This document shows positions 14,985 to 44,096 of a DNA stretch of 64,000 nt, piece after piece (within the stretch, counting starts at the first letter, position 1; each line of letters begins with the position of its first letter). The translations under genes were made by a program, and so were the position numbers. Location of the stretch: positions 1-64,000 of the forward strand of contig NZ_MSJQ01000291.1 of assembly GCF_014596515.1 (NCBI RefSeq), in the 5' to 3' direction. The notes under the pieces are model-generated. The model searched no databases. It worked only from the letters and a program-made list of their open reading frames with translations, and was not told where the DNA came from. The stretch comes from Streptomyces sp. CBMA156. Its GTDB lineage: Bacteria > Actinomycetota > Actinomycetes > Streptomycetales > Streptomycetaceae.

Positions 14985-15403
14985 GGCGTATCGCACTTCC
15001 TGGTCAAGATCGCGGTTGACGGGGCGTGTGGGGGTGGCCGCCTCGAAACTGAGCAGGCCAGCGTCGCAGCAGTGCTGGGGCAGCACACTACACATCTGAC
15101 ACTGCGGATTCCACAGGAGTCCACCACGACCTGCGGTCGACCGTTGCGGCGTCGATTCGCCTCGCTTCTGAGCACCTCTCGACTACTTGTCGATAGCCTT
15201 TCGCGACCCTCTGATGCATGCAGTTCGAATGGGGTACATTGGCCACTACAGACGCACACATACATGAGCCGACAGGCGGGTCGGCGACATAAAGCTGACC
15301 ACTCAAGCTCTATCTGCTCCCACCCGTGTGGGCGACCTGCGCTTGTCGCCTTGTGACTCGCTGCCATGTCACCGAATGATCCTAAAGGCGAGAGGAAAGA
15401 ACT
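14985..15403. promoter_or_regulatory. Divergent intergenic region with a CGAATGATCC motif
   Basis: This 419-bp gap separates the reverse XRE gene from the first forward gene of the conjugation-like block. It is richer in A and T than its surroundings. CCGAATGATCC lies at 15372-15382, 21 bases before the start at 15404. The same 11-mer recurs at 21377-21387, with variants at 26459 and 36231. No gene was found in it. Confidence 0.45.
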
Positions 15404-15796
15404 ATGACGAAGATCTACGAGGCAGCGGCCCTCACACAGGCCTCCCTGCCGAGCGCAGGCTGGGACCTGACGAGCTTCCTGCAGAACACCAAGTCCCAGA
15501 TCGAGCTCTGGGGCGGTCTTCTGCTCATGCTGCTCGGCGCTGCCGGCTTGGTATGGGGCGGTGTGCTTCTGATCAAGAAGCTGATGGCCAACCCGCAGTC
15601 TGGAGGCAACCAGCAGGGCTGGACCACGATCGCGCTCCTCATCCTCGTCGGCGGAGCCCTGGGTACCGGTGGGTGGTCGCTGATCTCGACGATCGGCTCT
15701 GGCGGCCAGAAGACCATCACGGACCTCGGCGGAGGCACGGTGATCGTCCAGACCGCCGATCAGGTCGACGGGTTCCTGAGCAGCCCTTCCAAGTAG
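15404..15796 (+). CDS. Small two-span membrane protein, VirB2-like candidate
   Basis: The ATG follows GAGAGGAAAGAACT. The 130-residue product has two clear membrane spans, about residues 36-58 (GGLLLMLLGAAGLVWGGVLL) and 73-96 (TIALLILVGGALGTGGWSLI), with a short basic loop between. Size, topology and position at the head of a conjugation-like operon resemble VirB2/TrbC pilin-type or accessory membrane subunits. Sequence alone does not prove this. It is the first gene of the forward block and has its own AT-rich leader. Confidence 0.7.
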   Translation: MTKIYEAAALTQASLPSAGWDLTSFLQNTKSQIELWGGLLLMLLGAAGLVWGGVLLIKKLMANPQSGGNQQGWTTIALLILVGGALGTGGWSLISTIGSGGQKTITDLGGGTVIVQTADQVDGFLSSPSK

Positions 15797-15934
15797 GAGG
15801 CCGTCACAGACCGTGCACACGACCGGGAACAGGGGCGTCGAACGAACCGGGTCGGTTGAGGTGCAAGGCCTCCTCCGATCCGGTTCGGCATTTCCGGGAC
15901 CGCAGCACAGCGCAGGCACGAAGGAGAGCAGAAC

Positions 15935-17239
15935 ATGGGGATCAAGGACAAGGCACTGGCCTTCAACAGGAAGTTCAAGCTCGACTCGCACCACGCGATC
16001 GAGCGCTTTGGGGTGTTCTTCGGCATCTTCGCGGTCACGGGTGCGATCGCGATCAGCACATCGGGGGCGTTGGCGTACCAAGCGGAGCGTGACTTGCTAT
16101 CGCAGACGGCGCTGTACACCAGCGACTTCAAGACGTCGAAGACGAACCTCGACGGCACCGTCGACGGGGTCTACACCAACAAGAGCGGCAACAAGACGCT
16201 CGTGATGATGCATTTCAGTCCGACTGCTCAGATCTCGTACAACGCCGCGGACTACAAGGCGTTCCTGCTCGGGTCGGACACCTCACTGAACAGCAAGCCG
16301 GTCAGCACCAGCGGGATCAAGGGCTCCTTCTACGCCTTCGGCTCCACCGGCTACGTCGGGGTCCTCCTGAATGCCGACCGGCCCTTCGACCGCCAAGTGC
16401 TGAACCTGACGGTCCGCGCGAACGCCGAACTCACCACTCCCGGAGCGAAGCAGACGCAGAGCAGCGGCAAGCTGGCCGGCGACGAGACCTTCTCCAAATA
16501 CGACCAGTGGCGGGTCTTCTTCAACCCCGGCGCGTCCGGCGTCCAGAAGATCGCGGCGCTCGACGCCCTGGCCTTCGACCCTTCGCAGGCCTACTACGAG
16601 GTCGCGCTCAAGGCGAAGGAGACCGAAGCCAGGGATGCCCTGGACCAGAAGCTCGTCGAGATGCGCACGAATCTGACACAGATTCAGTCCTACACGTCCG
16701 ACCTGCAGACGACGAAGCTCGACGGTCTGTTCCTGCGCCCGCCGACCGTCCCGGCCTCGATCGCCACCGACAAGATCACGGGCGTCTCCGCAGCTGAAGC
16801 GAAGGACGGCGTCTCGACGCTGGCGCTGCAGACCGCGCACGTCGTCCCGGGCGGCTTCGACCTCAACTGGCGTCCAGGCAACGTCTACGACGGCTACCTC
16901 CACGCCCTGGTGCCGACTGGACAGAGCTACGCCCAGTTCTTCACCAAGAAGCGTGACGGAGGCTCGGATCCGACCAGCCGTCAAACCTCGGACATGCAGT
17001 GGATTCTCTCGGACGGCACCAGCCTCACCAGGGACTACCAGTCCTCTGACGTGACGATGCGCCCGCTCATGAACATCATGAACAACCTTTCACAGGCGTA
17101 TCAGAACTACTCCAGGAACAAGTCCCAGTACGAATCGGACCTCTCCCTCGACCTGCTCCGACTGGACGTGAGCTTGAGGGATGTGCAATCCAACAGCACC
17201 ATTTGCAACGACAAGGACTTCCTCACCACGCTCTATTGA
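15935..17239 (+). CDS. Membrane-anchored extracytoplasmic protein of the conjugation block
   Basis: A good GAAGGAGAGC site precedes the ATG. The 434-residue protein has one N-terminal membrane span (about residues 26-47, GVFFGIFAVTGAIAISTSGA) and then a long, mostly polar outer region. It ends with a single Cys near the C-terminus. There is a coiled-coil-like stretch around residues 215-260 (AKETEARDALDQKLVEMRTN). It belongs to the forward block by spacing and strand. I recognise no family; a structural role in an envelope-spanning channel is an inference. Confidence 0.75.
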   Translation: MGIKDKALAFNRKFKLDSHHAIERFGVFFGIFAVTGAIAISTSGALAYQAERDLLSQTALYTSDFKTSKTNLDGTVDGVYTNKSGNKTLVMMHFSPTAQISYNAADYKAFLLGSDTSLNSKPVSTSGIKGSFYAFGSTGYVGVLLNADRPFDRQVLNLTVRANAELTTPGAKQTQSSGKLAGDETFSKYDQWRVFFNPGASGVQKIAALDALAFDPSQAYYEVALKAKETEARDALDQKLVEMRTNLTQIQSYTSDLQTTKLDGLFLRPPTVPASIATDKITGVSAAEAKDGVSTLALQTAHVVPGGFDLNWRPGNVYDGYLHALVPTGQSYAQFFTKKRDGGSDPTSRQTSDMQWILSDGTSLTRDYQSSDVTMRPLMNIMNNLSQAYQNYSRNKSQYESDLSLDLLRLDVSLRDVQSNSTICNDKDFLTTLY

Positions 17240-17297
17240 GCGCGGCAAGTAGGTGACGCAACCCACCACCTGGCATTGAGCAGGAAAGGAAGACGAC

Positions 17298-19505: not shown

Positions 19506-19528
19506 TGCGCTGCATCTGACCTGGGAGC

Positions 19529-19566
19529 GAGAGGCCGGTGCCGTACGACCTGGGCGCCGGCCTCTC
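19529..19566 (+). terminator. 10-bp hairpin after the wall hydrolase gene
   Basis: GAGAGGCCGG (19529-19538) pairs with CCGGCCTCTC (19557-19566) around an 18-base loop, 24 bases after the stop codon. Confidence 0.6.
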
Positions 19567-19654
19567 CATGTCAGGCGCAGGCTCTGCGTGCCGAATCCAC
19601 TTTTCGACACCCCCATTGAATGGATTCACACTCGGTCATGAATGCCTGTCTGTA

Positions 19655-19694
19655 TAGACTTGAGTCGCCTATGAGGGCAACATGGAGTGAGGAG
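19655..19694 (+). promoter_or_regulatory. Promoter-like TAGACT box and ribosome site
   Basis: TAGACT at 19655-19660 lies 42 bases before the GTG at 19703 and resembles the actinomycete -10 consensus TAGRRT. The surrounding 60 bases are AT-rich for this replicon. TGAGGAG (19688-19694) sits eight bases before the GTG. Confidence 0.5.
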
Positions 19695-19702
19695 TGCGTT
19701 CG

Positions 19703-20686: not shown

Positions 20687-21384
20687 CTGAACAGTCGGCT
20701 GCGCCCACGCGGCGGGGATCCCTCCGGCGCAACCTCGCGGCCCTGGCCACGACGGTGACCCTCGCGGTCGTCGCGACGGTTGCCGGCGTGACCTGGAGCA
20801 GCCAGCGCGCGGCCCTGGTCGAACAGGAAGTCCAGATCAAGGATGTCGAGGGGCATCTGGCAGGCATTCAGAAGAAGAACGCCGAGCAAGTGAACGCGGA
20901 CGTCATGGAGGCCCTGGGTGTCAGCCGGAACCGGCTGAGCACCGACGGTGAGCGCATCATGTCGCTGCTCTCGATGACCTTCACCTGGGACTCGGGACAG
21001 GGCTACGAAGCGGCGCGCGAGAGCCTGAAGAGCCGGTTCGGTCTCACCGAGAACGAGATGTTCCTGACGTCGTTCATGCCTCCGTCGAGGTTCAACGAGG
21101 ACGCCCAGGGACGGCGTTACTACTACATCGACACGGTCGGCCTGAACTCGGCCCTCGGCGCGGATCCGGGCATCGAGATCGTCGACGTCAAGGCAGGCGT
21201 CTACACCTACGCCGTCCTGGCCGACGTCGAGGTCACCTCCGACGCGGCGTCCCAAAACAAGTCGAGCAAAGCCAACGTCACGGCGCACCGACGTGCGCTG
21301 CTCTTCGTCACGATCGACGCCCAGGGCAAGGTCTCGAATCTCTCCGGCACCCCAGCAAGTGGCGAGACCCGCCATTCCGAATGA
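20683..21384 (+). CDS. Single-span membrane protein, second of a VirB8-like trio
   Basis: It overlaps the previous gene by four bases (ATGA), so translation is coupled. The 233-residue protein has a basic N-terminus, one span at about residues 17-38 (LAALATTVTLAVVATVAGVT) and a predicted extracytoplasmic part with RYYYIDTVGLNSALG and YTYAVLADVEV strands. This strand-rich outer domain could have the NTF2-like fold of VirB8 proteins; that is inference. The last codons contain a CGAATGATCC motif that may belong to the next promoter. Confidence 0.75.
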   Translation: MTEQSAAPTRRGSLRRNLAALATTVTLAVVATVAGVTWSSQRAALVEQEVQIKDVEGHLAGIQKKNAEQVNADVMEALGVSRNRLSTDGERIMSLLSMTFTWDSGQGYEAARESLKSRFGLTENEMFLTSFMPPSRFNEDAQGRRYYYIDTVGLNSALGADPGIEIVDVKAGVYTYAVLADVEVTSDAASQNKSSKANVTAHRRALLFVTIDAQGKVSNLSGTPASGETRHSE

Positions 21385-21430
21385 TCCAGACTCCCTTTCA
21401 ACTCGCCTTGTTGATAGAGTCAGACTGATA
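21378..21430 (+). promoter_or_regulatory. Shared motif and promoter-like box
   Basis: CGAATGATCC begins at 21378, overlapping the previous stop codon. An AT-rich segment follows, with TTGTTGATAG (near 21409) and CAGACTGATA (21421-21430). The same CGAATGA plus YAGACT arrangement occurs before 26583 and 44134. Confidence 0.45.
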
Positions 21431-21458
21431 TCTGAGTGGAGCGGCGAGTTGGGGATCA

Positions 21459-21732
21459 ATGGCATCGACACAGACCGGTGAGTCTGACGTGGCGGCTGGT
21501 GTCGGGATCCCGACGAGCTTCAACTCCAGCTTTGAGTGGATCGCCTAGGTGCCCCACCTGGTCAAGCCGACGGCACCGTCACGGTGGCCTGGCTGGCGAT
21601 GGAGAGCAGGACGGGTACAGGCTGCTGGCCTGGGCCCGCGCCGATTGCGGCCTGGCCCACAAGGCATTCGTGAGTATCCAGACCGGCACGAGGGCCACGG
21701 GCGAGACCCTGAAGCAGGGGGGTGAAGGCACC
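21459..21732 (+). pseudogene. Frameshifted small gene upstream of 21733
   Basis: An ATG at 21459 with GGGGAT upstream opens MASTQTGESDVAAGVGIPTS but stops at TAG 21546-21548. Protein-like sequence continues in a second frame (GQADGTVTVAWLAME) and then a third (DGYRLLAWARADCGLAHKAF), which runs in frame into the next gene. Either a gene of about 90 codons has decayed or the sequence has small indel errors. Confidence 0.4.
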
Positions 21733-22433
21733 GTGAACGAGGAGATCAAGGACAGGCTGCGCCAGCACTCCGGGAAGATCCGGCTCGGCAGCAGCGGGGC
21801 GCTACTCGCACTCTCGGTGTTCACGCTCGTCTCCGGCCTGCTCAGCGACGGCCCGGCCGCGAGGGACACCCAGAGCGACGCACTAGTCCAGAGGCTCGAA
21901 GGCAACCTCGGCGACGCCAAGACCACGCTGGCGACGCAACACGCGGCGCTGCTGGCCCAGCTGCCGGGCATGGACATCGAGAAGGTGAACCGTGACTGGG
22001 CAACTGGGCGGTCTCTTCCGCTCAGTCTCACCGGCAGCTCGGCGTCGACCCGGACCGTCAAGGAGCAGCAGGTTCTGCTCGACGCGCGCTACGGCTTCCT
22101 CGACCACGAATCCCGGGCACTCACCGAGTTCGTGCCGGAGTGGATGACGGCGACCGGAGCCGCAAAGGGCGCCGGAACCACATACACGCTTGCTGCTCTG
22201 GACATCGGTGTGAATCGGGTACAGGGCCTGAACTACTCCTACACGAGGTGGCCCGGCTCGATCCGGTCCGCGTTGGAGCGGATCAGCACAACACCACCAA
22301 GGGCGAGTTCGCGGTCTTCACCTACTCCACTTCCCACGATGGCACGGTGACTTCGCTGGACGCCTATCGGGCCCCCAGCAAGACCCGCGATGCCGCCAGC
22401 GAAGAACGGCCCTCATCCAAGTCCACCGGGTGA
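21733..22433 (+). pseudogene. Third VirB8-like membrane protein, broken by a single frameshift
   Basis: The GTG at 21733 opens VNEEIKDRLRQHSGKI and a membrane span near residues 21-38 (GALLALSVFTLVSGLL). A coherent outer domain follows up to LNYSY at about 22242. Beyond that the frame turns poor, while the -1 frame continues well as EVARLDPVRVGADQHNTTKG to the stop at 22433. Restoring one base, for example a C in TACCACGAG, would give a continuous protein of about 233 residues like its two neighbours. No slippery heptamer is present, so programmed frameshifting is unlikely. Confidence 0.6.
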
Positions 22434-22496
22434 GTGGACCGCCCGCTGCTTCAGCACACACCCCACAAGACACCGACGAGACGTAAGGACACGAAT

Positions 22497-23021: not shown

Positions 23022-24064
23022 TGCGCACCGCAGGACTGACGATGAACGACGTATGGGCCCACCGTGTCCTGCGTGAACGAGGAGTGGAGACGTACCAACT
23101 GGAGGGGGTGATCGCCGAGCTCGGCGTCATGGTCGAATCGCTCGAACTCGTGCACCGGGGCAAGGAGGAGAACTACCGCCCGTATCTGCACATGACAGGC
23201 GAGCTCCGCTCGGTTACGCCGGCCAAGGCACTGCCGTTCGGCATCTCCCAGGTGACCTACTCCCCTGGCCAGGGCGAGAAGGTGGACGCCTTCTACGAGT
23301 TCGATAACCAGCAGCTGTCCGCGCTCGTCAGCAAGGGCTACTTCGCGAGCGGCTTCGCGGTACCCGAGCAGGTCACTGGGATCGAGTGGGAGTTGCCGGC
23401 CACAGCGGACATGCTCGTGCTCGCTCCGTCGGGGACGCAGACCGAAGGCGATGCTCCCGTGGTCTTCACCCAGGTCCGCGGTATCGGGGGCTTGGAGATC
23501 GATCTCGAGTCCAGCGGCTACGACCTCGCCGACTACTTCGCCGACCACTCCAAGAACGGCGTCCCGCTGATCGAGACTGTGGTCGATGCACGCGGACTGA
23601 AGGCGCGCTCGGACGCAATCAACTCGCTGTTCACTGTAGATGAGCTGGGCCTGGACACCGACGTCGAGCAGATCGTCCGAGCGCCCGCGCCCAAGACAGC
23701 CCCGGTCGTCGGCGGCATGAGTGCTCGCCTGCAGCAGGTCGAGGCGGAGATCGCCGCCGAACGGGAACAGCACCAGACCGAGCGGGCAAGCACCGAGGGC
23801 ACCACGGAGAACCTCTACCGGGAGCGCGTGGCTGCACCACTGCGCAGAGCCGAAGAGCAGAAGGTGCCGTTCGCTCCCCCGCTCCCGGTCCGGGAGGCGC
23901 AGCGCGACCTGGACCCAGATCTCGGCCTGGAGCCGGCGGAGCGGGAGGCCCGTCGACGTGAAGCCGGGCCCGTCCCGAGCCTGGACGAGCGAAAGCGCCA
24001 AGTGGCCCAGCGTGCGGCCGACCTGGACTTCGGCGAGGACGGCGAGCAGATCCTGGGTTCCTGA
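23021..24064 (+). CDS. Hypothetical cytoplasmic protein with a charged coiled-coil C-terminus
   Basis: The ATG overlaps the previous stop. The 347-residue protein has a compact mixed N-terminal part of about 230 residues and then a Glu/Arg-rich helical tail (RLQQVEAEIAAEREQHQTER). There is no membrane span and no catalytic motif I recognise. It sits directly before the relaxase gene, separated by a hairpin, so a role in relaxosome or coupling assembly is possible. Confidence 0.7.
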   Translation: MRTAGLTMNDVWAHRVLRERGVETYQLEGVIAELGVMVESLELVHRGKEENYRPYLHMTGELRSVTPAKALPFGISQVTYSPGQGEKVDAFYEFDNQQLSALVSKGYFASGFAVPEQVTGIEWELPATADMLVLAPSGTQTEGDAPVVFTQVRGIGGLEIDLESSGYDLADYFADHSKNGVPLIETVVDARGLKARSDAINSLFTVDELGLDTDVEQIVRAPAPKTAPVVGGMSARLQQVEAEIAAEREQHQTERASTEGTTENLYRERVAAPLRRAEEQKVPFAPPLPVREAQRDLDPDLGLEPAEREARRREAGPVPSLDERKRQVAQRAADLDFGEDGEQILGS

Positions 24065-24088
24065 GGACGGATCAGGAACGACGAGCAA

Positions 24089-24121
24089 GGCCCCGGTTGC
24101 TGGCACACGGCAGCCGGGGCC
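24089..24121 (+). terminator. Hairpin before the relaxase gene
   Basis: GGCCCCGG (24089-24096) pairs with CCGGGGCC (24114-24121); an inner GCTG/CAGC pairing extends the stem. It lies 25 bases after the stop at 24064 and may end or attenuate the upstream operon. Confidence 0.6.
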
Positions 24122-24158
24122 GTAGTACATCGGTAGCGAGACAGGACGGAGAGCGACG

Positions 24159-26447: not shown

Positions 26448-26459
26448 TCAAAGCCTTGC

Positions 26460-26546
26460 CGAATGACCCATGCCGGCATTAGCGTAAGGAGCGCGAGACG
26501 GGGAATCGACTCCCTGTCTGGATGATGTGACTGATCACGTCAGACT
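26460..26546 (+). promoter_or_regulatory. Motif, hairpin and promoter-like box upstream of 26583
   Basis: CGAATGACCC starts at 26460, 13 bases after the relaxase stop. An imperfect hairpin follows: AGACGGGGA (26496-26504) and TCCCTGTCT (26511-26519), with one G-T pair. CAGACT at 26541-26546 lies 36 bases before the next ATG. Confidence 0.45.
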
Positions 26547-27119: not shown

Positions 27120-27148
27120 GGCTGAGTCAAGCCCCTTCTGAAAATACC

Positions 27149-27638: not shown

Positions 27639-28009
27639 CACAGTCACAACTTCACGGCCTCACCGGTCGTCTAGCGAGCCCAGCTGACCAGCACTTCAAT
27701 GGCCGCCTTGCCGTCAGGCCGGTTCCGCCCGCCCGAGCACACCGCATGGTGCGGCTGCGCAGAGGGTCACCGATTCAGAGGGCGCCGTCAATCCCCCGAC
27801 GGCGCCCTCTCCCCCTAAGCGAAGCACCGGGACTTGTGGCCTGCTAGACCGCGCAGTGCGGGGCCCGACAAAGGCCTCGGTCCGCGAGCCCGAGTACGGG
27901 GGGTGAGCGACAGCAACCAGAGCACGTCATGAGAGGCGCCGGAGTCCATGGTGCGACCTCTCGCATTTCCCCGCCATATCTGCACTCCAGTGAAGAGGTC
28001 TTGTGCGGC

Positions 28010-29776: not shown

Positions 29777-29915
29777 GTCAGTCAAGGACGACGACAACCA
29801 GCGACTAACGAGTCGATAGTCCATCCACTCCCTTTGGCTGCCTACTCAGACAGGGTGGCTATAGGATCTAATAAATCAGGCGAACTGTGCTCCTTTAGCG
29901 AAGGGATTGGCATCG
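29777..29915 (+). promoter_or_regulatory. AT-rich leader of the coiled-coil gene
   Basis: The gap is notably AT-rich. It contains CTCCCTTTGG (near 29829) and, downstream, TATAGGATCTAATAAATC (near 29862-29879). The leader of the RNA polymerase gene has a similar order, CTTCCTTTGG then TATCTATGGATAC. AAGGG (29901-29905) serves as ribosome site. Confidence 0.4.
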
Positions 29916-31970: not shown

Positions 31971-32096
31971 ACGATCCGGTCAGTCCGACGGGTGATCTTA
32001 CGGCGCATGGGGCGCGTTCCCCATGCGCCGTCGGCGTCTGCGCAGGCAGGCGCGCTGGACAGCAGAACGGGCGAGACCCGAGAGCAAGGGATCACG

Positions 32097-35000
32097 ATGG
32101 CCACGAACAGGCGGAAGGCGTCACGGCCTGAGGCGAGCAGCTGGGACAAGATCTCAGCGCGGTCGCCCGGCGAGACGTTGACGAACCGAGACGTCTACGA
32201 CAACCAGCAGCTCGATCGCAGCGAGTTCTCGACCCTGAGGTCGACCAGACCGGGCATCGTCGTCGCGGTGATTGCCGGCACGCTGGTGACGGTCGTCGTC
32301 TGGGTCCTCTACTCGCTCATCGCCACGGCGGTGCTCTCGGCGGGCACGTCCGCGGGTTCGGGCAGGCCTGGCAGCAGTACCGGCATGCCGAGCGTGTACT
32401 ACGTCCAGGACACCACGACAGGTGCGGGCGGCTCGGTCGTGAAGTGCTACCGGCCTCTGGCCGAGAACGGCAACCCGGATGTGAAGGCCAGGTGTTATCC
32501 CAGCGCCGAGGCTGTCCCGGTCCCCCGCTGGTACACCGCGGCGAAGGACGGCAGGCCCGGCGCCGAGAGGTCGGCTGAGTCCAAGAAGAACTCGACGACC
32601 GTCGGCGAACAGCTGGCCGACGTCTCGGGGTTCAAACTCTTCATCACGCTCGGCTCGGGTCTGATGGTCGGCCTCATCATCGGCACGTGGTTCTCGCGGA
32701 AGGTCGCCGCGGCGAACCTGATGAACGACACGAGCGACATCAACCAGTACCACAACGACCAGCACATCGCCCTGCCGGAAGAGATCCAGCAGAACTACGA
32801 CTGGTTCCCCGACGCCGGTGCTCACTCGAACGTGCAGGTCAGCTCGATGCTCAGCCACATGATGCTCAGGAAGAAAGGCCTGGGCACCGTCGAGGTCGCC
32901 CAACGCGCCACGAAGGACGTCATCGGCGAGAAGGGGCACCCTGTCTACTACGCGGGCGAGGTCATGGACGACGACGAGGGCAATCCGCTGACGCAGACCC
33001 TGCCGATCATCGACGAGGACTTCGGCGACGAACTGTTCGAGGCATCAGGGCTCCCCGAGGACAAGGGGCTGCGTCAGAAGTACGACACCAGGCTGATTCC
33101 GTACAACCCTGACGGCCGGAACCGGGACAAGCTCGGCTTCGGGTCGGACAAGTACCAGACCGTCGCTGACCTGATCAAGGAGGACTGGGCGTTCCCGGCG
33201 TACGAGGTCCAACGCCCGGCCGGGGCGTACGTGGTCGACACCGCGCCGGTGAACACCATGGTGCTGGCCATCACCCGGGCCGGTAAGGGCCAGACATACA
33301 TCGAGCCGGTCATCGACATGTGGTCACGTGAGAAGAAACCCTCGAACATGGTCATCAACGACCCCAAGGGCGAGCTGCTGGTGAAGAACTACGTCGCCCT
33401 GGTCACTCGCGGGTTCGAGCCGGTGCAGTTCAATCTGATCAACTCCATGAAGACCGACATCTACAACATCCTGGGGCTGGCGGCCGACGCGGCACGTGAG
33501 GGCAACTTCACCAAGTGCGCACTGTACGTGGAGAACATCGCCGGGATCTTCTTTCCGCTCGACGGCGGCGAGGACCCGGTCTGGCCCAATGCCGCCAACA
33601 ACGCCTTCAAGCGCGCGGCCTACGGACTCATCGACTTCTACCTGGAGGAGGAGCGGGAGCTGCGCAGCGCCGCGGCCGTGGTGAACATGGATCTGGCCCT
33701 GGTGGAGCAGAAGCTCGACGACCTCTGGGGCAAGGTCACCCTCTACAACTGCTACCAGCTCTTCGTACAGATGAGCTCGAAGAAGATCAAGAACCCTGAG
33801 GCCGAGCTGGAGAAGCGGGTCAAGGCCGGCGAGTTCGAGAACAACGAGGACGCCTTGGCCGAGGAGCAGGAGAAGGCGGCTGCCCAGGCCTTCATGTGGG
33901 AGGGCAAGGCTGATCAGGACATGCTCAGCCTGTACTTCAACGCGAGCGAGGAGCTGCCCCGCAACAACATGCGCACGCTGGTGGGCAACGCCCACAACGC
34001 GCTGCGCTCGATGGCCGGGGCGGAGAAGATGCTGGCCTCGGTGTACGGCATCGCGATCACCGCCATGTCGTTCTTCACCGACCCCACGATCTCGACGCTG
34101 ACCTCGGGCAAGCCCTCGCAGAACACCGACCTGGCCGGCCTGAGCTTCCCGCGTCGCCTCGGCGTGCGTTTCGCGCCGAACTACGTCAAGCGCGACCACC
34201 TCGTCGGTCAGCAGGCCGTGTGGTCGGCCTACGCGGACCCGATGTTCACCGAGAACCTGGGCGAGGACTTCACACACGAGGAGATCGTCGGCCGCGAGGG
34301 ATGGGCGCGGTACAACTTCAAGGGCAAGTTCCCCGACGACGAGGCCTGGCTCAAACTGGAGCTGGTCAACCCGCAGACGAAGATGCTGGTGCGGACCTTC
34401 TACTTCAGCTTCACGAAGAACTACCGGCTCTCACTCAACGGCCGGCACTACGTGGTCGAGCCGGTGACGGGCAGGAAGATCGTGAAGAACGGTGTGATGC
34501 GTGAGCTCAAGCCGGTACGCGAGGGCGGCACCCGGGACGGGCGGATCCTCTCCTTCCAGCCCGGGGACACGCTCTACCCGGACACACGGCTGGACTTCTC
34601 CGGCGGCGGCAATCCGGAGAAGGTCTCGTACCAGGCACGGGCGATCACTCAGACACTGGCGCGCTACTCGGAGTCCCCGAAGGCGCTGTTCCTGGTGACT
34701 CCGCCGCACCTGATGAAGTACGCAAAGCTGATCCTGATCCTGGTCAAGCAGCTGTTCGACGTGAGCGCCGACCAGGCGTACATGACGAAGTCGAACCAGA
34801 AGCCGCTCTACCGCACGCGGTTCATGCTCGACGAGCTCGGAAACCTGCAGTCGGAGGGCAAGGGCATCGACGGCTTCGAGACGATGCTCAGCATCGGTCT
34901 CGGCCAGGAGCAGCAGTTCACGCTCATCCTGCAGACCCTGCAACAGCTGCGCGATGTCTACGGCGAGTCGGTCGACAAGATCGTGCAGGGCAACACCTCG

Positions 35001-36143
35001 AACATCGTGTTCCTGAAGTCCACGGACGACTCGATGATCGAGACGCTGGAGAAGATGAGCGGCAAGACGCACCGGTCGTACAGGGACAGCAAACAGATCA
35101 GCCAGGATCTCGACAAGCTCATCGGCGGCAAGACCGAGGGCCGGGTCTCCTACACGATGACCACCAAGGAGGAGCCGCTGATCAGCTACAACGACATGGC
35201 ATTCCTCGCACCGCGAAACTCGATCGTCTTCCGCGCCGGCGACGCGCCGATCTGGAACCGCAACCAGACGATCCTGCCGATGTCGTTCCGGCTGCTGGGG
35301 AACACGATCAAACACCCTGGACACACGTACTCACTGCAGACGATCCCGACCTTGTCCAGTGCCGTGGACTTCGACGTACGGATGAATCAGCCGGACTTCG
35401 TGAAGATGCTGGAGAAGCGTATGCGGCAGGCGGTCAGGGCCGCGGACGCGAAGGCGCAGTACAAGGAGATCTACGGCTACCAGGAGGTCGACATCGAACG
35501 CCTGGACCCGGATGTCTACGCCGACGAGGTCATGGAGGTCATCACCACGATGACCACGGTCGACCAGGGTCAGGACCCCAGCGCCCCGGTGGTCGTCGAC
35601 CCCGATGAGTACACCGGGATGAGCATGTTCGACGAGGACCAGTTCATCGAGAACGTCGAGGTCGGGGTTGCGGTCGCCGAGAGTCGGGCGGTCAGCGTCG
35701 AGCGGCAGCGACTGCTCTACGCCGAGGGGACGATCAGCAAGGAGATGCTGGTCAACCCCGACGGGTCGGCGAAAGTCAAGAGCCTGGACATCGAGATCGG
35801 TGAGGCCTACAAGTCGGCGCAGACCGAGCTGGAACAGGATCGCGAGCACTTCTCGGTCGGCGGCGACGGCGAGCTGCGCAGCACCGATGGATCCCAGACG
35901 TATATCAGCCGGATCCGCTCGGACGCGTACGCCCGTGCGGCCCGCCGGATCAACGGTCACGTGAACGACGGGGACTCGCGGGTGTTCGCCGAGGAAGACG
36001 TCACCGAGCAGGATCTGAAGTCGCTGGTGACGGTGATGGTCCACTCGGCCTTCTACCAGTACCTGGCCTCGCTGCCGAGCTGGGAGGTGCTGGCCGACGG
36101 CCGGTTCGACCGGGCCATGGCCATCGAGATGAACTCGAAGTAG
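32097..36143 (+). CDS. VirD4/TraG-like conjugative coupling ATPase, very large
   Basis: The ATG at 32097 follows AAGGG; an earlier in-frame ATG lacks a site. The 1348-residue protein has two N-terminal membrane spans (about residues 57-82 and 181-202), Walker A in TRAGKGQTYIEP (about residue 395) and Walker B in RFMLDELGNLQSEG (about 911). It also has the QTLQQLRDVYG and NTSNIVFLKS segments of VirD4-type coupling proteins. These ATPases bring the relaxase-DNA complex to the secretion channel. The gap between Walker A and B is more than twice the usual length, so about 300 extra residues are inserted. The C-terminal 250 residues are an unrecognised extension. Confidence 0.88.
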   Translation: MATNRRKASRPEASSWDKISARSPGETLTNRDVYDNQQLDRSEFSTLRSTRPGIVVAVIAGTLVTVVVWVLYSLIATAVLSAGTSAGSGRPGSSTGMPSVYYVQDTTTGAGGSVVKCYRPLAENGNPDVKARCYPSAEAVPVPRWYTAAKDGRPGAERSAESKKNSTTVGEQLADVSGFKLFITLGSGLMVGLIIGTWFSRKVAAANLMNDTSDINQYHNDQHIALPEEIQQNYDWFPDAGAHSNVQVSSMLSHMMLRKKGLGTVEVAQRATKDVIGEKGHPVYYAGEVMDDDEGNPLTQTLPIIDEDFGDELFEASGLPEDKGLRQKYDTRLIPYNPDGRNRDKLGFGSDKYQTVADLIKEDWAFPAYEVQRPAGAYVVDTAPVNTMVLAITRAGKGQTYIEPVIDMWSREKKPSNMVINDPKGELLVKNYVALVTRGFEPVQFNLINSMKTDIYNILGLAADAAREGNFTKCALYVENIAGIFFPLDGGEDPVWPNAANNAFKRAAYGLIDFYLEEERELRSAAAVVNMDLALVEQKLDDLWGKVTLYNCYQLFVQMSSKKIKNPEAELEKRVKAGEFENNEDALAEEQEKAAAQAFMWEGKADQDMLSLYFNASEELPRNNMRTLVGNAHNALRSMAGAEKMLASVYGIAITAMSFFTDPTISTLTSGKPSQNTDLAGLSFPRRLGVRFAPNYVKRDHLVGQQAVWSAYADPMFTENLGEDFTHEEIVGREGWARYNFKGKFPDDEAWLKLELVNPQTKMLVRTFYFSFTKNYRLSLNGRHYVVEPVTGRKIVKNGVMRELKPVREGGTRDGRILSFQPGDTLYPDTRLDFSGGGNPEKVSYQARAITQTLARYSESPKALFLVTPPHLMKYAKLILILVKQLFDVSADQAYMTKSNQKPLYRTRFMLDELGNLQSEGKGIDGFETMLSIGLGQEQQFTLILQTLQQLRDVYGESVDKIVQGNTSNIVFLKSTDDSMIETLEKMSGKTHRSYRDSKQISQDLDKLIGGKTEGRVSYTMTTKEEPLISYNDMAFLAPRNSIVFRAGDAPIWNRNQTILPMSFRLLGNTIKHPGHTYSLQTIPTLSSAVDFDVRMNQPDFVKMLEKRMRQAVRAADAKAQYKEIYGYQEVDIERLDPDVYADEVMEVITTMTTVDQGQDPSAPVVVDPDEYTGMSMFDEDQFIENVEVGVAVAESRAVSVERQRLLYAEGTISKEMLVNPDGSAKVKSLDIEIGEAYKSAQTELEQDREHFSVGGDGELRSTDGSQTYISRIRSDAYARAARRINGHVNDGDSRVFAEEDVTEQDLKSLVTVMVHSAFYQYLASLPSWEVLADGRFDRAMAIEMNSK

Positions 36144-36174
36144 CCGACGGCCACTTGGGGGCCTGGCGAGGATG

Positions 36175-36230
36175 AAGGCCAGTGCCGGGGTTGCCTCTCG
36201 ACCAAGAGGGACAACCCCAGTACTGGCCTT
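36175..36230 (+). terminator. Long multi-part hairpin between coupling-protein and polymerase genes
   Basis: AAGGCCAGT (36175-36183) pairs with ACTGGCCTT (36222-36230). Inside lie GGGGTTG/CAACCCC and CCTCT/AGAGG pairings. The composite stem is followed directly by TCGAATGACC and the polymerase leader, so it probably insulates the polymerase gene from upstream transcription. Confidence 0.75.
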
Positions 36231-36308
36231 TCGAATGACCTATCGCTTCCTTTGGATGGACAGGTTAGTATCTATGGATACTTATGCAACTCCGAGTGTC
36301 CATAGGAG
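36231..36308 (+). promoter_or_regulatory. AT-rich polymerase-gene leader with motif and palindromes
   Basis: TCGAATGACC starts at 36231. Downstream is CTTCCTTTGG, then the perfect hyphenated palindrome AGTATC-TATG-GATACT (36267-36282), nested between ATGGACA (36256-36262) and TGTCCAT (36297-36303). The palindrome could be an operator. AGGAG (36304-36308) is the ribosome site, 11 bases before the GTG. The stretch is among the most AT-rich of the window. Confidence 0.5.
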
Positions 36309-36319
36309 CTTGATTAGTA

Positions 36320-39300
36320 GTGAAGAAGGCACACGGACTGCGCAGATACTTCTACGAGTACGTCTACTACAAGGCAGTCGAGCAAGCCCGGGAACAGACC
36401 GGACAGGTCATTCCGATCTCCCAGGCCAAAGCGATCCGCGCCCGGGTCGACGAGCTCCTCGGCCGGCAGGGCACCGCGCTGGCCGACCCGCAGCTGGGCG
36501 TCACCGACTGCCTCACCGCCATCGACCAGGCACTCGGCGAGCGGGTGGCCGGCTACGAGCCGCAGTTCGGTGACCACTCCCCGCGGAACGAGCGCTACCA
36601 GCAGTCGCAGCGGGAGTTCACCCGCGCCACCGGCGTCGGTACCCAGGTGGACCCGAAGTCGGCCCGGCTGCCGATCAGCCCCTACGACCCCCGCTGGTCC
36701 GAACGCGCGACGGTGAAGCGCGCCGGGACTGCGCTGGTACACCTGCCGGACGAGACGATCGGACGCGTGGCCGACGGTGAGGTGGAGACCCTGGCCGACC
36801 CTCGGCGCGGAAACATGGCGCTCTGGCGCATCGACGACGAGGGCAGGCCGTTCGAGGCAGGCCGCGCGATGACGAGCGACGACGCCGCCGGACTCACCAC
36901 ACTGATGGACAAGATGAGCCAGCGGGAATACGACCAGGTCCGCGAGTGGGTCATCGACGGCGGCCGGACCCCGCAGACCAACCACGTCGACCGCAACCGC
37001 TTCATGTCCCGGCGCGCCGTGGCGCGCTCGGCGGCACTGCTCGAAGAGCTGAAAGCTCAGGGCGTGTCCTACGAGGTGATGCGCGACCGCGAGCCGGGCC
37101 AGATCAAGGCGAGGATCGCCGGGACCGGCATGGAGATCCGCCTCATCGACACGCGCCAGGAGGAGTACGCCGGGGCCCGGATCTACGACAACGGCACCGT
37201 ACTGCGCTACTCGACGAACTACCGGGTCCCCGGCAGCATGGCGGTCTACTCCCCCTCGCCGACGGAAGCTGTCCAGCTGCTGCGCTTCGCCCAGGGCCAT
37301 CGCGTCGAGCGCACGGATCTGCCGGGGCACGCCGCCGGTGGGACCGGCACAACGCACCAGGAACGCGGCCGCGCCCGCACGGTGGTGAATGTACCCGACA
37401 GCTACCACGTCGACCGCGAGTCGATGTTCGTGGTCGGCGACTACACGGTCCCCGGCGAGTCCGGCCCCCGGCCCGGGGCGAAGGTGATGCTGCGCCGGGA
37501 CGCGAAGAACCGCTCGCTGCCGGCCTTCTTCATCGACGCCGAGCCAGCCGAGGCCTATGCGAAGGCCGCCGTCGAGAGTGCTCGGGCGAACCTGCAGGCA
37601 GCCCTTGGCGTCGAGCACCTCATTGCTCGTGCCGAGGACGAGCTGGAGAGAACCGGCGGACAACTGGATGCGATCGAGCCGCCGGAGTACTCGGCTGACG
37701 CCGAGGTCGCTGCGATTCAGCGCTCATACTGGGACGTGCTCACCGGCGCGAACAGCGACCTGCTGCGCCCGGGCGCGACCGAAGAGATGTACCAGGAGCG
37801 CCTGGAGGAGATCGGCGAGCTACAGCCTGGGGAGGTGCCCGAGATGGGCAACCTCGCCTACGGCGGCACCGCCGTCGAGAAGGTCCGACAGCACGCCGAA
37901 GACATCCCCTTCGAACTCATCGGGACCTGGGAGGCCCAGCCCCACCACATCAACGGCGAGTGGGTCGACCAGCGCTTCAACCCGGACCGGGTGGCACGGT
38001 ACATGACCAGCCCCACTGGGCAGTGGTCGAACCTCGACAACCTCGCCTCGGCGCTTCGTCGCTGCGGGGTCTCCCCCGACGAGGTGATGGGCTCTACCTT
38101 CCAGACGACCCGGTTCAAGGACCGGCTCGTCCGCTTCAACGCCGAGCGCTCCGTACCGATCGCCGATCACGAGTCTGCGTTCATACGGCGCGTCGGGGTC
38201 ACCGTGCGTGACAGCATCGAGCGCAACGCGGCGACGGTCTCCGAGATCCTGATCGACGAGCAGGGCGTCATCCGCTGGAGCGGCGAGAAGCTGCGCCGTG
38301 ACGGCAAGGGGAGCCCGATCTCGGGCGAGATCGGTCAGGTCTTCGATGTCGGCGAGTACGGCGAAGTCACCACCGCCTTCGCCAGCGGGAGCAACGCCCT
38401 GGTCGTGCCGGGCTACGAGGCCACGATCACGGCCCAGGCTCCGGGCGAGGCTCCGACATCGGTCGAGGAACGCACCCGCCTGCGCGGCTACGAGCAGCTC
38501 ATGCACGAGCGCATCCAGTACCAGATCGCCGGCGACCTCATCTCCGGACGCAGCGTGACCGGCGAGCCCTCCTCCCTCAACGCGGTCTACTCACAGCTGT
38601 ACGGCACCAAGCACCCGGTCGACTTCATCGAGCGCGCCACCACGTACCGGCTCGACGAGTCCACCGGCGAGCTCACGGGGCACCTGGACGAGTGGACGGC
38701 CGCGACCCTGCAGACCGAGGCGCGTCGTGTGCGCTACTCCAACGAGATCAAGGCAGGCTCGACGATCTACGCCGAGTACCGGGCCCAGCGCGACCGAACC
38801 GACCCGGCTGACGACAACCGCTTCGACGCCTGGCGGCTCACCGGCGGGCGGAACATGACGGTGCTCACCGGCAAGGACCGGAACAACGTCGTCGCGCCCA
38901 GCGGCTACTTCGACCCGGTGATGACCGGTGGCGCGACCAACCAGGGCATCGTGCGGTACCTGACCACTCAAGCCCGGGTCGACGCCGACGGCCGGATCGC
39001 ACCAGGGGACGACAGCGTGGGCGGACAGCGTGCACCGCTCATGGCTCTCCCCGAGCTCGAGACGCTGCGGTACGACCCGTTCGACCGCCAGCAGATGACG
39101 GCCTCGACGATCATGCAGTCGTCTGAGGTCACCGCGCCGGCGAAGACGGCGCTGATGACCTTCGGTGGTTGGACGGCCGACGATCCGATCGTGGTGTCGA
39201 AGGAGTTCGCCGAGCGCCACCGCATCCGCGGGGCCGGCGGCCGGGAACGCGATCTCGTCGTAGGCGACAAGATCTCGGACCTGCACGGCAACAAGGGCGT

Positions 39301-41866
39301 GATCTCACTGATCGTCGACCGGGACATGCTGCTGCAGGACGCGCAGGAGCAGGATGTCGTCGAGGAGGTCAACTGGTTCCGGGCCAACCCGGGCCTGGAC
39401 GTGGTGATGAGCCCGTTCAGCCTGATCTCCCGGCGCAACGCGGGCTCGGCCCGCGAACTGATGAACGGGAACGTCTCCGACCTGCGCTCGCCCGACGGAG
39501 AACTGCGGCCGAATGCCCTGGGCGAAATGCGCTTCGTGGTCACCCACATGGCCGTCGACGAGAAGACGAAGATCTACGACGACCAGCAGGTGCGTGCCGG
39601 AAAGGGCCGTAAGGCCTCCTCCCAGCTGGCCTGGGCCCTCCAGTCTCAGGACTGCCCGGCGATCATGCACGAGTTCTACGGCCACAACAGCGGGGCCGAA
39701 TCGAACCTGCGCGAGTATCTGCTGGTGACCGGCATGGACATGGCGGCTGACGGCACACTGCGGGTGATCGGCCAGACCGAAAGCCTCGACGAGCGCCCCG
39801 AGCGCCGGTTCATCCCGATGCCCGGGCTGCTGCGCACCCAGCCCCGCAAGGTGGGCCAGCTCCCGGGACTCAACGCCACGGCGATGCGCAAATCCTTCGG
39901 CGCCCTCATCGGCGACCGCGGCGGCGACATGGAGATTCCGTTCCCGCTCACCTATCCGACCGGTGAGCGAACCGAGACGGTGAGCGCGAACTCGTGGAAG
40001 CTGCCGGTGATGTCCTCGCATCTGCGCAGCGGCCAGGAGTTCGAGGACGGGTCCTCCGTCACGCACGACTACACCCGCGGCTACCAGGACGTCTTCGTCG
40101 AGGCCTGCCGCTACCGCTACATGGCCGAGCAGCTCGCCGGCCAGGGCCTGTCCGCGGAGAAGCGCGTCGAGGTGCGCCACGGTATGAGTGAGTCGGTCTC
40201 GCGCGCTCAGCGCGCCTTCGAGGCGATCACGACCGACGTGCGGAACCGGGTACTGACAGGCAAGAACAACATCTTCAAGACCGGGCTGATGGCCTCGCGG
40301 CTCACCGACTCGGCGACGATGGTGTGGACCTCAGACCCGCGACTGGACGTCGACCAAGTCGCGCTCAGCTCGGTCAAGGCCGAGCAACTGGGGCTGGCCG
40401 AGGGCGACCACGCGCTCGTGTGGCGTGACCCGGTGCTTCGTGACGCCGGCGTGCGCTACATGCGGGTCGCGATCGATGACCGGCTCACCGGCGCCGCGAT
40501 CAACCCGGTGATGGACGCCTGCTTCGACGGCGACTTCGACGGCGACGCCGTCGCGGTGGTGAAGCTGCACAGCGAGGCCGCCAAGGCTGAGGCCCTGGCG
40601 AAGCTCTCGGTGCCTGCCAACCTGCTGGACACCGGCGTGGTCAAGGGCGATGGCTCGCACCCGCTGGCCATGCAGGTTTCTCTGGACACCCAGGTCGCAC
40701 TCTCCAAGGACGTTGCACTGGCTGAGGAGTTTCAGAGTTCGCGGAGCGAGGCGAACCGGCTCCGGCTGCAGGCGCTCACGGGCGCAGAGCAGCCGGAGGA
40801 CATCACGCTCGCCCAGCAGGTCGTGACGGAGGAGCTGAGCGTGCTGTACCGCCAGGCGCAGCGCGGCGAGTTCGGTGCGGCGCTGACGTTCTCGGATCCC
40901 GAGGCGCACCTGCAGAGTGTGCGCGAGGTCTGTGTCGAGACCGGTGCCAAGGGGAGTGAGAAGAAGCTCACCGACTACGCCCGGAACCTTGGCGATGCGC
41001 AGGGCACACCTGGCATCACGCAGGCCGACCAGGAAGCCTCGATGTTCGCCACGGCGATCAAGGCCCACGGCACCGGTCTGGGCGGCTCATTCAGCCAGCG
41101 CGCCGTTCGCGCGCTGCGCGGCGAGGACCTCAAGGCCGTCCTGGAGGTTACCTACCCGGTGACCCAGTCGATTCTGCAAGCCAAGCACGACGCTGCCGAG
41201 GCCCGGCACAAGTACGCGATGCTCCAGGGCCCCGGCCGCGATCTCTGGAGGGGCCGCAGCATCGCGCACGTCGGCCCGGGCCAGTGGCGCACGGCGCTCC
41301 TCGACGGTGAGCCCGTCCAGGCCACGGCTGAGGAGTGGGAGAAACAGTTCATTGAGTTCTACGAGTCCAAGGAGGGCTTCGGAGTCACGGTCAACCCGGA
41401 CTATGTGGCCCGCGTGGCCGGTGCGCTGGAGGACCCGAAGACCGGCCTCATCCGCAACTTGGAGGAAGACGCGTCGCTGCGGGGCACCGTGATGGACCGG
41501 ATGGCCTATGGCGGCGCCTTCGCCGATCTGGTCGAGGCCGCCAGGAACCGCGAGAGCGTCTACGAAGGCGAGAAGAACGAGCAGTTCGCATCCTCGGGGA
41601 CACGGAAGGCTCGGACACAGTTGTCCCGGCAGCTCGACCGGCTTGGCGCCGCCGAGACACACAGCCTGGACAACGCCGTGATCGCTGTCGACGACTCGGT
41701 GGTCAAGCGCGACGTGATCTCTCAGAACGCGGATGCCTCCCGCACTCGCGGCGCGCATCGCCGCTCTGCGCATGCCGTGCGCGTGGGCGCGGCGCGTCGG
41801 GTGTACACGCCGAGCATCGAGATCGACCAGCCGCAGGGCGACGGCGACTACGGGATGGGGTATTGA
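36320..41866 (+). CDS. Single-chain two-barrel DNA-dependent RNA polymerase (fused beta/beta'-like)
   Basis: The 1848-residue protein carries both double-psi beta-barrel signatures of multisubunit-type RNA polymerases. The beta-type barrel has GDKISDLHGNKGVIS with both conserved lysines (K984, K992). It is preceded by FDRQQMTASTIMQSS and FGGWTADDPIVVSKEFA and followed by MSPFSLISRRNAGSA, all in beta-subunit order. The beta'-type barrel follows GKNNIFKTGLMASRLTDSA (about 1314) and has DACFDGDFDGDAVAVV with the metal-binding aspartates D1405, D1407 and D1409. The catalytic centre thus looks intact. The roughly 900 residues before it are unfamiliar. The chain is far shorter than beta plus beta', and no alpha, omega or sigma gene is nearby. 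Related single-chain enzymes are known from phages and prophages (YonO, crAss-like). The start is a GTG with AGGAG 11 bases upstream. A gene for a 574-residue protein starts one base after its stop. Confidence 0.9.
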   Translation: MKKAHGLRRYFYEYVYYKAVEQAREQTGQVIPISQAKAIRARVDELLGRQGTALADPQLGVTDCLTAIDQALGERVAGYEPQFGDHSPRNERYQQSQREFTRATGVGTQVDPKSARLPISPYDPRWSERATVKRAGTALVHLPDETIGRVADGEVETLADPRRGNMALWRIDDEGRPFEAGRAMTSDDAAGLTTLMDKMSQREYDQVREWVIDGGRTPQTNHVDRNRFMSRRAVARSAALLEELKAQGVSYEVMRDREPGQIKARIAGTGMEIRLIDTRQEEYAGARIYDNGTVLRYSTNYRVPGSMAVYSPSPTEAVQLLRFAQGHRVERTDLPGHAAGGTGTTHQERGRARTVVNVPDSYHVDRESMFVVGDYTVPGESGPRPGAKVMLRRDAKNRSLPAFFIDAEPAEAYAKAAVESARANLQAALGVEHLIARAEDELERTGGQLDAIEPPEYSADAEVAAIQRSYWDVLTGANSDLLRPGATEEMYQERLEEIGELQPGEVPEMGNLAYGGTAVEKVRQHAEDIPFELIGTWEAQPHHINGEWVDQRFNPDRVARYMTSPTGQWSNLDNLASALRRCGVSPDEVMGSTFQTTRFKDRLVRFNAERSVPIADHESAFIRRVGVTVRDSIERNAATVSEILIDEQGVIRWSGEKLRRDGKGSPISGEIGQVFDVGEYGEVTTAFASGSNALVVPGYEATITAQAPGEAPTSVEERTRLRGYEQLMHERIQYQIAGDLISGRSVTGEPSSLNAVYSQLYGTKHPVDFIERATTYRLDESTGELTGHLDEWTAATLQTEARRVRYSNEIKAGSTIYAEYRAQRDRTDPADDNRFDAWRLTGGRNMTVLTGKDRNNVVAPSGYFDPVMTGGATNQGIVRYLTTQARVDADGRIAPGDDSVGGQRAPLMALPELETLRYDPFDRQQMTASTIMQSSEVTAPAKTALMTFGGWTADDPIVVSKEFAERHRIRGAGGRERDLVVGDKISDLHGNKGVISLIVDRDMLLQDAQEQDVVEEVNWFRANPGLDVVMSPFSLISRRNAGSARELMNGNVSDLRSPDGELRPNALGEMRFVVTHMAVDEKTKIYDDQQVRAGKGRKASSQLAWALQSQDCPAIMHEFYGHNSGAESNLREYLLVTGMDMAADGTLRVIGQTESLDERPERRFIPMPGLLRTQPRKVGQLPGLNATAMRKSFGALIGDRGGDMEIPFPLTYPTGERTETVSANSWKLPVMSSHLRSGQEFEDGSSVTHDYTRGYQDVFVEACRYRYMAEQLAGQGLSAEKRVEVRHGMSESVSRAQRAFEAITTDVRNRVLTGKNNIFKTGLMASRLTDSATMVWTSDPRLDVDQVALSSVKAEQLGLAEGDHALVWRDPVLRDAGVRYMRVAIDDRLTGAAINPVMDACFDGDFDGDAVAVVKLHSEAAKAEALAKLSVPANLLDTGVVKGDGSHPLAMQVSLDTQVALSKDVALAEEFQSSRSEANRLRLQALTGAEQPEDITLAQQVVTEELSVLYRQAQRGEFGAALTFSDPEAHLQSVREVCVETGAKGSEKKLTDYARNLGDAQGTPGITQADQEASMFATAIKAHGTGLGGSFSQRAVRALRGEDLKAVLEVTYPVTQSILQAKHDAAEARHKYAMLQGPGRDLWRGRSIAHVGPGQWRTALLDGEPVQATAEEWEKQFIEFYESKEGFGVTVNPDYVARVAGALEDPKTGLIRNLEEDASLRGTVMDRMAYGGAFADLVEAARNRESVYEGEKNEQFASSGTRKARTQLSRQLDRLGAAETHSLDNAVIAVDDSVVKRDVISQNADASRTRGAHRRSAHAVRVGAARRVYTPSIEIDQPQGDGDYGMGY

Positions 41867-41867
41867 G

Positions 41868-43592: not shown

Positions 43593-43634
43593 GGACGATC
43601 CGAGAAACGCGAACAAGGAGCAGGAGGAGGGGTC

Positions 43635-44000
43635 ATGCGCCAGGAACAGAGTGAGGAACAGCAGGTCAGGTTCGGATCTCGTTTCGCGCGGATGTTCGGC
43701 TACGTCACGCCGGAGGACCGGAGCCGATGGGAGCAGCAGCGGGCGCAGAACAAGCCGCACGCCAACGCGATCAAGCATGGCGCGAAGTCGTCACTGAGCT
43801 CGATGGTGGAGTTCGGGGAGCGCAACATCGGCGCGAAGCTCGACGCGGCCCACCGCGTGGCGGCGCAGCAGCGGTTCGAGGAGTCCCACAACAAGGTCGT
43901 GAACCAGCGCCACGATCCGTACACGCGGAACATCATCGAGTCGATCGACTATGAGCCCAAGGACGGCCGAGAGGAGATCGAGCCAGATCTGGAGCTCTAG
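43635..44000 (+). CDS. Small basic/acidic hypothetical protein, third gene of the polymerase operon
   Basis: A GGAGGAGG site lies close before the ATG. The 121-residue protein is hydrophilic, with RFGSRFARMFGYVTPEDRSR near the start and an acidic end (EIEPDLEL). It has no cysteine, no membrane span and no recognised fold. It lies 42 bases after the previous gene and before an independently regulated HU-like gene. It may be an accessory factor of the same operon. Confidence 0.7.
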   Translation: MRQEQSEEQQVRFGSRFARMFGYVTPEDRSRWEQQRAQNKPHANAIKHGAKSSLSSMVEFGERNIGAKLDAAHRVAAQQRFEESHNKVVNQRHDPYTRNIIESIDYEPKDGREEIEPDLEL

Positions 44001-44096
44001 TCGAATGAGTCGACATAAACGTTGTGAGTGCACTCGAAAAGCTCAACCACCCTTCTCGGCTCGTGCTTATCTTCGCTAGACTGATCTATAAGCGAA
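44001..44096 (+). promoter_or_regulatory. Leader of the HU-like gene with shared motif and inverted repeat
   Basis: TCGAATGAGTCGAC starts at 44001. TAGACT lies at 44077-44082 and is flanked by the inverted repeat TTCGCT (44072-44077) and AGCGAA (44091-44096), so the -10-like box sits inside a possible operator. The start codon is 51 bases further on. The segment is AT-rich. Confidence 0.5.

Follow-up and report, generated by a model that had tools for sequence, protein, structure and literature searches.

The repeated leader motif and the question it raises

What is the short sequence that recurs at the gene boundaries of a conjugation module in Streptomyces sp. CBMA156, and which protein reads it? 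The window analyzed here, the first 64,000 nucleotides of contig NZ_MSJQ01000291.1 (assembly GCF_014596515.1), sits on a contig of 132 kb in a host genome of 9.17 Mb; among named relatives, a Streptomyces plasmid is the closest. The module is a conserved block of ~30 kb (15–44 kb of the window) that encodes a phage-type lysozyme protein, a MobL relaxase, an AAA ATPase, a VirD4/TraG-type coupling protein and an HU-like protein. A first-pass annotation of this DNA had pointed to a leader motif, CGAATGA (extended form YCGAATGAYC), with YAGACT boxes downstream, and had proposed that both belong to one promoter or regulator code of the element, read perhaps by its own polymerase or by the host sigma factor. 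The observation was confirmed, and its interpretation is supported in part. A palindromic box with the core CATTCGAATG has CGAATGAYC as one of its arms, and TAGACT is the predicted -10 element of sigma70-type promoters. The boxes are probably the palindromic operator of a divergently transcribed regulator gene of the XRE family (reg), whose product would most likely repress transfer promoters of the host sigma70 type.

A palindromic box in the module leaders

All CGAATGA copies named in the first-pass annotation exist: the core starts at 15373, 21378, 26460, 36232 and 44002, with a further copy inside a gene at 46393, all on the + strand, and the - strand of the window has none. The placement in leaders holds as well. 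Intergenic DNA amounts to 2.8 kb of the module (15.1–44.1 kb) and contains four of the five module copies, against an expected average of 0.16, with none of 1000 dinucleotide shuffles reaching four; the fifth (21378) shares bases with the stop codon of the preceding gene. The extended motif YCGAATGAYC occurs 16 times in the whole genome, with four of these copies in the window, a suggestive but weak sign of specificity, and a looser palindrome pattern was unspecific. YAGACT as a class was weaker (5 seen versus 1.29 expected, P = 0.01).

Across genera, 150 orthologous leaders were compared, and 6- to 8-mers were counted against shuffles and coding DNA. CTATCGA/TCGATAG (33 seen, 3.7 expected) and CATTCGA/TCGAATG (32 seen, 4.7 expected) ranked at the top of this unbiased count, as did ATAGACT. 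Variants of the box core include CTATCGAATG, CTTTCGATAG and CTTTCGACTC. Symmetric expectation-maximization on the leaders gave ATGATCATTCGAATGATCAT, and with this model the box density in leaders exceeds that in coding DNA by a factor of 23 at score 7 and of 46 at score 9; the equal frequency inside genes that the first-pass annotation had named as speaking against its idea was thus tested and is not what is seen. Because the seed and the symmetry of this model favor a palindrome, an unseeded, unconstrained search was also made, which returned the overlapping motif TTCGACTGATCTATgA with a log-likelihood ratio of 296, versus 95–100 in shuffled leaders. Conservation in related elements is seen across many genera: a model trained on Streptomyces finds boxes in the leaders of other genera at 23–208 times the coding density, and the converse model finds them in Streptomyces at 41–68 times.

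Counts on the gene strand gave 31 forward and 21 reverse copies of CGAATG, and 38 and 21 of CGATAG, whereas TAGACT is found 21 times forward and once reversed and ATAGACT 16 times forward and never reversed. The box is therefore orientation-independent and TAGACT a directional core-promoter element. A single promoter made up of CGAATGA plus YAGACT was ruled out, the parts differing in orientation behavior and in spacing; the proposed regulatory code stands insofar as it is conserved in many genera, but not as one promoter code, since there are two separate signals. Distances between boxes peak at 11–12, 21–24, 33–36 and 44–47 bp, a phasing of ~11.5 bp that places the boxes on one helix face; part of the 12 bp peak reflects a self-similar model, with flanks that derive from adjacent boxes.

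Which leaders carry boxes

Boxes stand singly or in arrays at about eight to nine promoters of the module. Sites were present in the leaders of the RNA polymerase (RNAP) gene and of p130 (13 of 14 each), p182 (12 of 12), g29907 (12 of 13), p262 (5 of 6), p330 (6 of 9), HU (8 of 12) and AAA (9 of 15). The within-operon gaps of p434 (0 of 13), MobL (0 of 12) and the coupling protein T4CP (0 of 14) had none, and one weak p434-gap site appears at a laxer cut-off. The sites of the window are as follows, with scores from the position weight matrix (PWM):

15171–15201, no strand: two overlapping operator boxes (PWM scores 8.6 and 11.7) in the region shared by reg and p130; the cluster is equally distant in other elements
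15224–15240, + strand: operator core TTCGAATG in the reg/p130 region, then 3 bp and a -10-like TACATT
15372–15381, + strand: CCGAATGATC, motif copy 1, adjoining the p130 ribosome-binding site; in most Streptomyces copies compared
19617–19660, + strand: p330 promoter region; a pair of TGAATG boxes at a distance of 22 bp, then 10 bp and the -10 TAGACT (19655–19660)
21369–21420, + strand: p262 promoter region; boxes 21369–21388 (motif copy 2) and 21390–21409, -10 TAGAGT 21415–21420
26451–26485, + strand: p182 promoter; box 26451–26470 (motif copy 3) overlapping the -35 TTGCCG 26456–26461, -10 TAGCGT 26480–26485
29805–29867, + strand: g29907 promoter; box 29805–29824, -10 TAGGAT 29862–29867
36223–36286, + strand: promoter region of the RNAP gene; boxes 36223–36242 (motif copy 4), 36235–36254 and 36267–36286, -10 TAGTAT 36266–36271
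43993–44088, + strand: HU-gene promoter region; boxes 43993–44012 (motif copy 5) and 44069–44088, -10 TAGACT 44077–44082
45611–45630, - strand: operator-like site (PWM score 9.3) over the -10 TAGACT (45622 to 45617) at gene 45203–45610 (- strand)

The best score of the module, 17.2, belongs to the box at 36223–36242. The 15224–15240 site is kept from Streptomyces to Nocardiopsis, its relatives having TAGATT, as in CACCATTCGAATGGTG-TAGATT in the reg/p130 region of locus L062, where the box is a perfect dyad. The second p262 box and its -10 are conserved in Arthrobacter. The p182 promoter has an 18 bp spacer, with TTGnnn and TAnnnT conserved across genera, and in relatives of g29907 a TTGCnn precedes TAGGAT by 18 bp. 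Outside the module, a divergent region in locus L011 (14100–14250, ~94 kb on its contig) carries facing CATTCGGG...CCCGAATGA with CAGACT nearby; these copies may belong to the regulon as well, or to a promoter pair unrelated to it.

This distribution bears on the idea that the boxes serve the DNA itself (partition, transfer-origin or nucleoid organization, for example via the HU-like protein) or a host factor. Such a role would be in keeping with phased arrays scattered over 30 kb and with the HU-like protein that the module encodes. The arrays are, however, tied to promoter-bearing leaders and absent from the equally long MobL and T4CP gaps, and at the same cut-off (score 10) box density amounts to 0.03 per kb in 100 kb of host DNA versus 2.4 per kb in window leaders. 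We regard this explanation as very unlikely.

Core promoters probably of the host type

The -10 elements in the window (TAGACT at 19655, TAGAGT at 21415, TAGCGT at 26480, TAGGAT at 29862, TAGTAT at 36266 and TAGACT at 44077) each hold the same place in relatives, with the consensus TAGRnT. On the gene strand, unselected leader listings show T1, A2 and T6 to be conserved; the -10 information profile was pre-selected on T1, A2 and T6 and is no independent evidence for those positions. The YAGACT positions reported earlier were correct, but the copies turned out to be heterogeneous: TAGACT at 19655, 44077 and 45622 (- strand) is conserved as a -10 element, whereas CAGACT is not. The CAGACT copies at 21421 and 26541, taken for boxes in the first-pass annotation, are unconserved, and the -10 elements of the sister element at these places are TAGAGT (21415) and TAGCGT (26480).

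The p182 leaders and most of those of g29907 have a TTGnnn at an 18 bp distance from the -10; none is recognizable in those of AAA, p330, p262 and HU. This distance agrees with Streptomyces -35 boxes, which reportedly lie 2–3 bp further upstream than those of E. coli (PMC4681348). The module leaders resemble vegetative sigma70-type promoters of Streptomyces in their TAGRnT -10 and, in some cases, in a TTG -35 located slightly further upstream (PMC4681348), but differ in that most lack a recognizable -35 and carry an extra box. Gene 45203–45610 is nearly leaderless, with TAGnCT/TATAMT a few bases before its ATG and conserved in Streptomyces and Arthrobacter, a geometry that would fit a transcription start site 6–9 bp downstream of the -10. 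Reading by the host sigma factor, one of the two options voiced at the outset, is supported for the TAGACT part and not for CGAATGA.

The distance from box to -10 is constant within orthologous leaders and varies between leaders, amounting to 3 bp in reg/p130, 6–7 bp in the RNAP leader, 10 bp in AAA, p330 and p262 and, in Streptomyces, 14 bp for p182 and HU. Such variation suits the operator of a regulator better than a core promoter element. A search for a second common directional element in box-masked leaders returned weak motifs only, none with a tight position.

The 22 bp between the p330 boxes had raised the idea of direct-repeat sites for a SARP/OmpR-type activator, that is, heptamers spaced by 11 or 22 bp, the final one standing ~8–10 bp before the -10. 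The box 10 bp before the -10 in AAA, p330 and p262 agrees with it, as does the strong preference for spacings near 11–12 and 22–24 bp, and weak -35 elements suit an activated promoter. We nevertheless rejected this candidate and rate it as improbable: the box lies 3, 6–7 or 14 bp from the -10 in other leaders and also downstream of it, boxes occur in both orientations, and no SARP/OmpR-type protein was found among the scanned module and flanking proteins, the conserved regulator being of the XRE type.

A divergent XRE-family regulator as the candidate reader

The regulator gene adjoins the left end of the module:

14478–14984, - strand: reg, XRE-family helix-turn-helix (HTH) regulator (Pfam HTH_31/HTH_3), divergent from the transfer module

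Its product has 169 residues, with a predicted HTH and a long C-terminal coiled-coil helix (78–131). In 18 of 20 compared genomes reg adjoins p130, and the HTH (SQAELARR...TRIEQQ.RAVRLDEAV) is near-invariant across genera while the tail varies. A divergent HTH_3/HTH_31 gene and repeated operator motifs at both the divergent region and the transfer promoters, the two marks of an XRE conjugation regulator, are found together here. Among 198 other genomes of the family, close relatives of reg were not found beyond weak matches. Gordonia and Rhodococcus relatives have no reg within the 45 kb examined and few boxes, and the Actinomadura element, with a rearranged left end, has no reg and has sites in two of seven leaders.

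The box, its dyad-type and orientation-free nature, the phasing, the restriction to promoter leaders, the conservation across genera and the co-conserved reg were all computed. From these features we infer that the reg product is the binder, that it represses and that its binding is cooperative. Reg would bind the boxes as dimers, cooperatively along one helix face, over and next to the promoters, and would silence all transfer units at once, the polymerase gene and reg itself included. Upon its release, the pilus/type IV secretion system (T4SS) genes would be switched on together with those for the relaxase, the HU-like protein and the RNA polymerase of the element, the transfer promoters presumably being transcribed by host RNA polymerase as ordinary sigma70-type promoters. 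Repression is favored over activation because boxes are found between the -35 and the -10, over the -10 and further downstream.

Several points weigh against a palindromic operator bound by a Reg repressor. Most leaders have no recognizable TTGACA -35, which leaves room for activation. The Granulicoccus element, in which reg is not detectable, keeps sites in three of four leaders, and reg resembles host XRE proteins, making the family assignment generic. The dyad of the strict PWM was imposed in part by symmetrizing and by a palindromic seed, the unconstrained motif is moderately palindromic (correlation 0.63), and for a standard HTH dimer the core, TCGA flanked by 5 bp arms, would be a short target, so that the true unit may be two adjacent boxes.

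By analogy, Rco of pLS20 and ArtA of pSK41 appear to be the functionally closest known cases. Rco of the Bacillus subtilis plasmid pLS20 is an XRE-family conjugation repressor that binds cooperatively to several short repeats around and over sigma-A promoters (PMC4207663). It shares with reg the setting of an XRE-type regulator of a conjugative plasmid at divergent promoters, a likeness in function; pLS20 has two operators in one switch region with an 8-bp motif, whereas the actinobacterial module has a different, palindromic box at about eight promoters spread over 30 kb. ArtA of the staphylococcal plasmid pSK41 is a divergent master regulator that represses transfer and other operons from several plasmid sites (PMC6540685), but it is a ribbon-helix-helix protein, whereas reg combines a helix-turn-helix with a coiled coil, and the boxes described here are more numerous and helically phased.

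The single-chain RNA polymerase under the same box

One of the genes behind a box encodes a polymerase:

36320–41866, + strand: single-chain RNA polymerase of 1848 residues, with a predicted beta-like (GDKxxDxHGNK) and a predicted beta'-like (DFDGD) catalytic barrel

Pfam Rpb2_6 and Rpb1_2 both match in 21 of 21 aligned members, the profile of the family matches solved beta'/RPB1 chains (E 1.8e-15), and aligned relatives share without exception the catalytic DFDGD and GDKxxDxHGNK residues. Together these results argue for a single-chain beta/beta'-like polymerase. Both double-psi beta-barrel signatures lie in one chain, a YonO-like architecture; the predicted structure of the core, in which the two barrels were sought, was poor (pLDDT 40.6). 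YonO of SPbeta likewise has both catalytic barrels in one polypeptide on a mobile element (PMC5467207); it measures ~100 kDa, as opposed to ~1850 residues here, in an actinobacterial conjugation module and with predicted activity.

Relatives of the polymerase occur on plasmids (91% in Streptomyces, 38% in Gordonia and Rhodococcus, ~25–28% in Staphylococcus and Lactococcus) and in 26 loci of Streptomyces, Arthrobacter, Pseudarthrobacter, Promicromonospora, Kribbella, Granulicoccus, Nocardiopsis and Actinomadura; none were found in phages and viral contigs. MobL lies near the polymerase gene in all 20 genomes checked, and in many actinobacterial genera the polymerase, MobL and the coupling ATPase are conserved together, the polymerase being annotated everywhere as a hypothetical protein. 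A literature search for actinobacterial conjugative elements with such a polymerase found nothing on point, which does not disprove their existence. In Streptomyces toxytricini the gene (locus L043, 10001–15570) is apparently frameshifted, with a first stop at codon 396 of the frame in which it starts, unlike at the 15 other loci checked. The sister Streptomyces plasmid has an annotated gene for an RNA polymerase alpha subunit ~3 kb to the left of the module (locus L018, 11402–12427). Polymerase leaders of Gordonia and Rhodococcus (upstream of L014 20001 and L015 20094) share a different conserved sequence, TRTGTACTACTATAAGAATAGATCC, perhaps the promoter/operator type of these elements.

The other option voiced at the outset was that the element's own polymerase reads the motif, and the element does encode a candidate. 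Boxes and TAGACT would then form the promoter of this enzyme, in orthogonal transcription as in yeast killer plasmids or SPbeta YonO. The catalytic motifs are intact, the gene keeps its synteny with the module in all genomes examined, the leaders of the Gordonia and Rhodococcus elements, whose polymerase is only ~38% identical, are different, and most leaders lack a clear -35, all of which would agree with such a promoter. Against it stand the presence of CGAATG in both orientations, the phased arrays and the leader-dependent distance to the -10; the directional part has the T1 A2 ... T6 pattern of sigma70, with TTG -35 elements at 18 bp in p182 and g29907, and masking of the boxes left no single directional motif at a fixed position. 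The polymerase gene, moreover, bears the same box and would hence need its own product to start. We consider an own-polymerase promoter of this composition unlikely. A variant in which the element's polymerase reads TAGRnT while boxes and Reg control access seems to us quite unlikely; if true, it would make transfer transcription self-contained, perhaps for use in the recipient right after entry. The operator of a Reg repressor over host-type promoters is the reading that we retain as the most probable.

The module and its relatives

Three further genes of the conjugation module are the following:

24159–26447, + strand: MobL relaxase (Pfam MobL, 2.3e-110)
31992–36143, + strand: VirD4/TraG-type conjugative coupling ATPase (T4CP), start at ~32097 by homology
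44134–44514, + strand: HU/IHF-like DNA-binding protein at the module end; its counterpart in locus L013 is annotated as HU family

The gene order reg-p130-p434-lysozyme-p330-p233-(p262-p236)-p174-p345-MobL-p182-AAA-g29907-T4CP-RNAP-g41869-g43635-HU is mostly preserved across relatives, and the module was found in Streptomyces, Arthrobacter, Kribbella, Nocardiopsis and others. A tyrosine-recombinase-like gene adjoins reg in some chromosomal copies (L071, 279–1511; L064, 277–1570), which suggests integrative elements among the relatives. The p262 gene of the window (21436–22433) is apparently broken, with only its 3' part aligning, and is intact in the sister Streptomyces plasmid; given this state, the element of the window may be decaying. 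The AAA promoter and boxes of sister elements (CTATCGAATG...TGATAGGAT...) are missing at 27860–28012 of the window, apparently through a small deletion. GC-rich hairpins devoid of a T-run lie in the box-free MobL and p434 gaps (24060–24130 and 15830–15890) and are possible terminators or processing sites.

Implications

The proposed operator/regulator pair is new and of a kind already known, and the polymerase under its presumed control is the more surprising object. For a family of actinobacterial conjugative elements that has received little description and is characterized by MobL, a T4SS-type coupling ATPase and a single-chain polymerase, the analysis predicts a regulon and proposes a master regulator. 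The box allows transfer promoters to be found across genera from sequence alone, and the reg/operator pair could serve to turn the element on and to learn what its polymerase transcribes.

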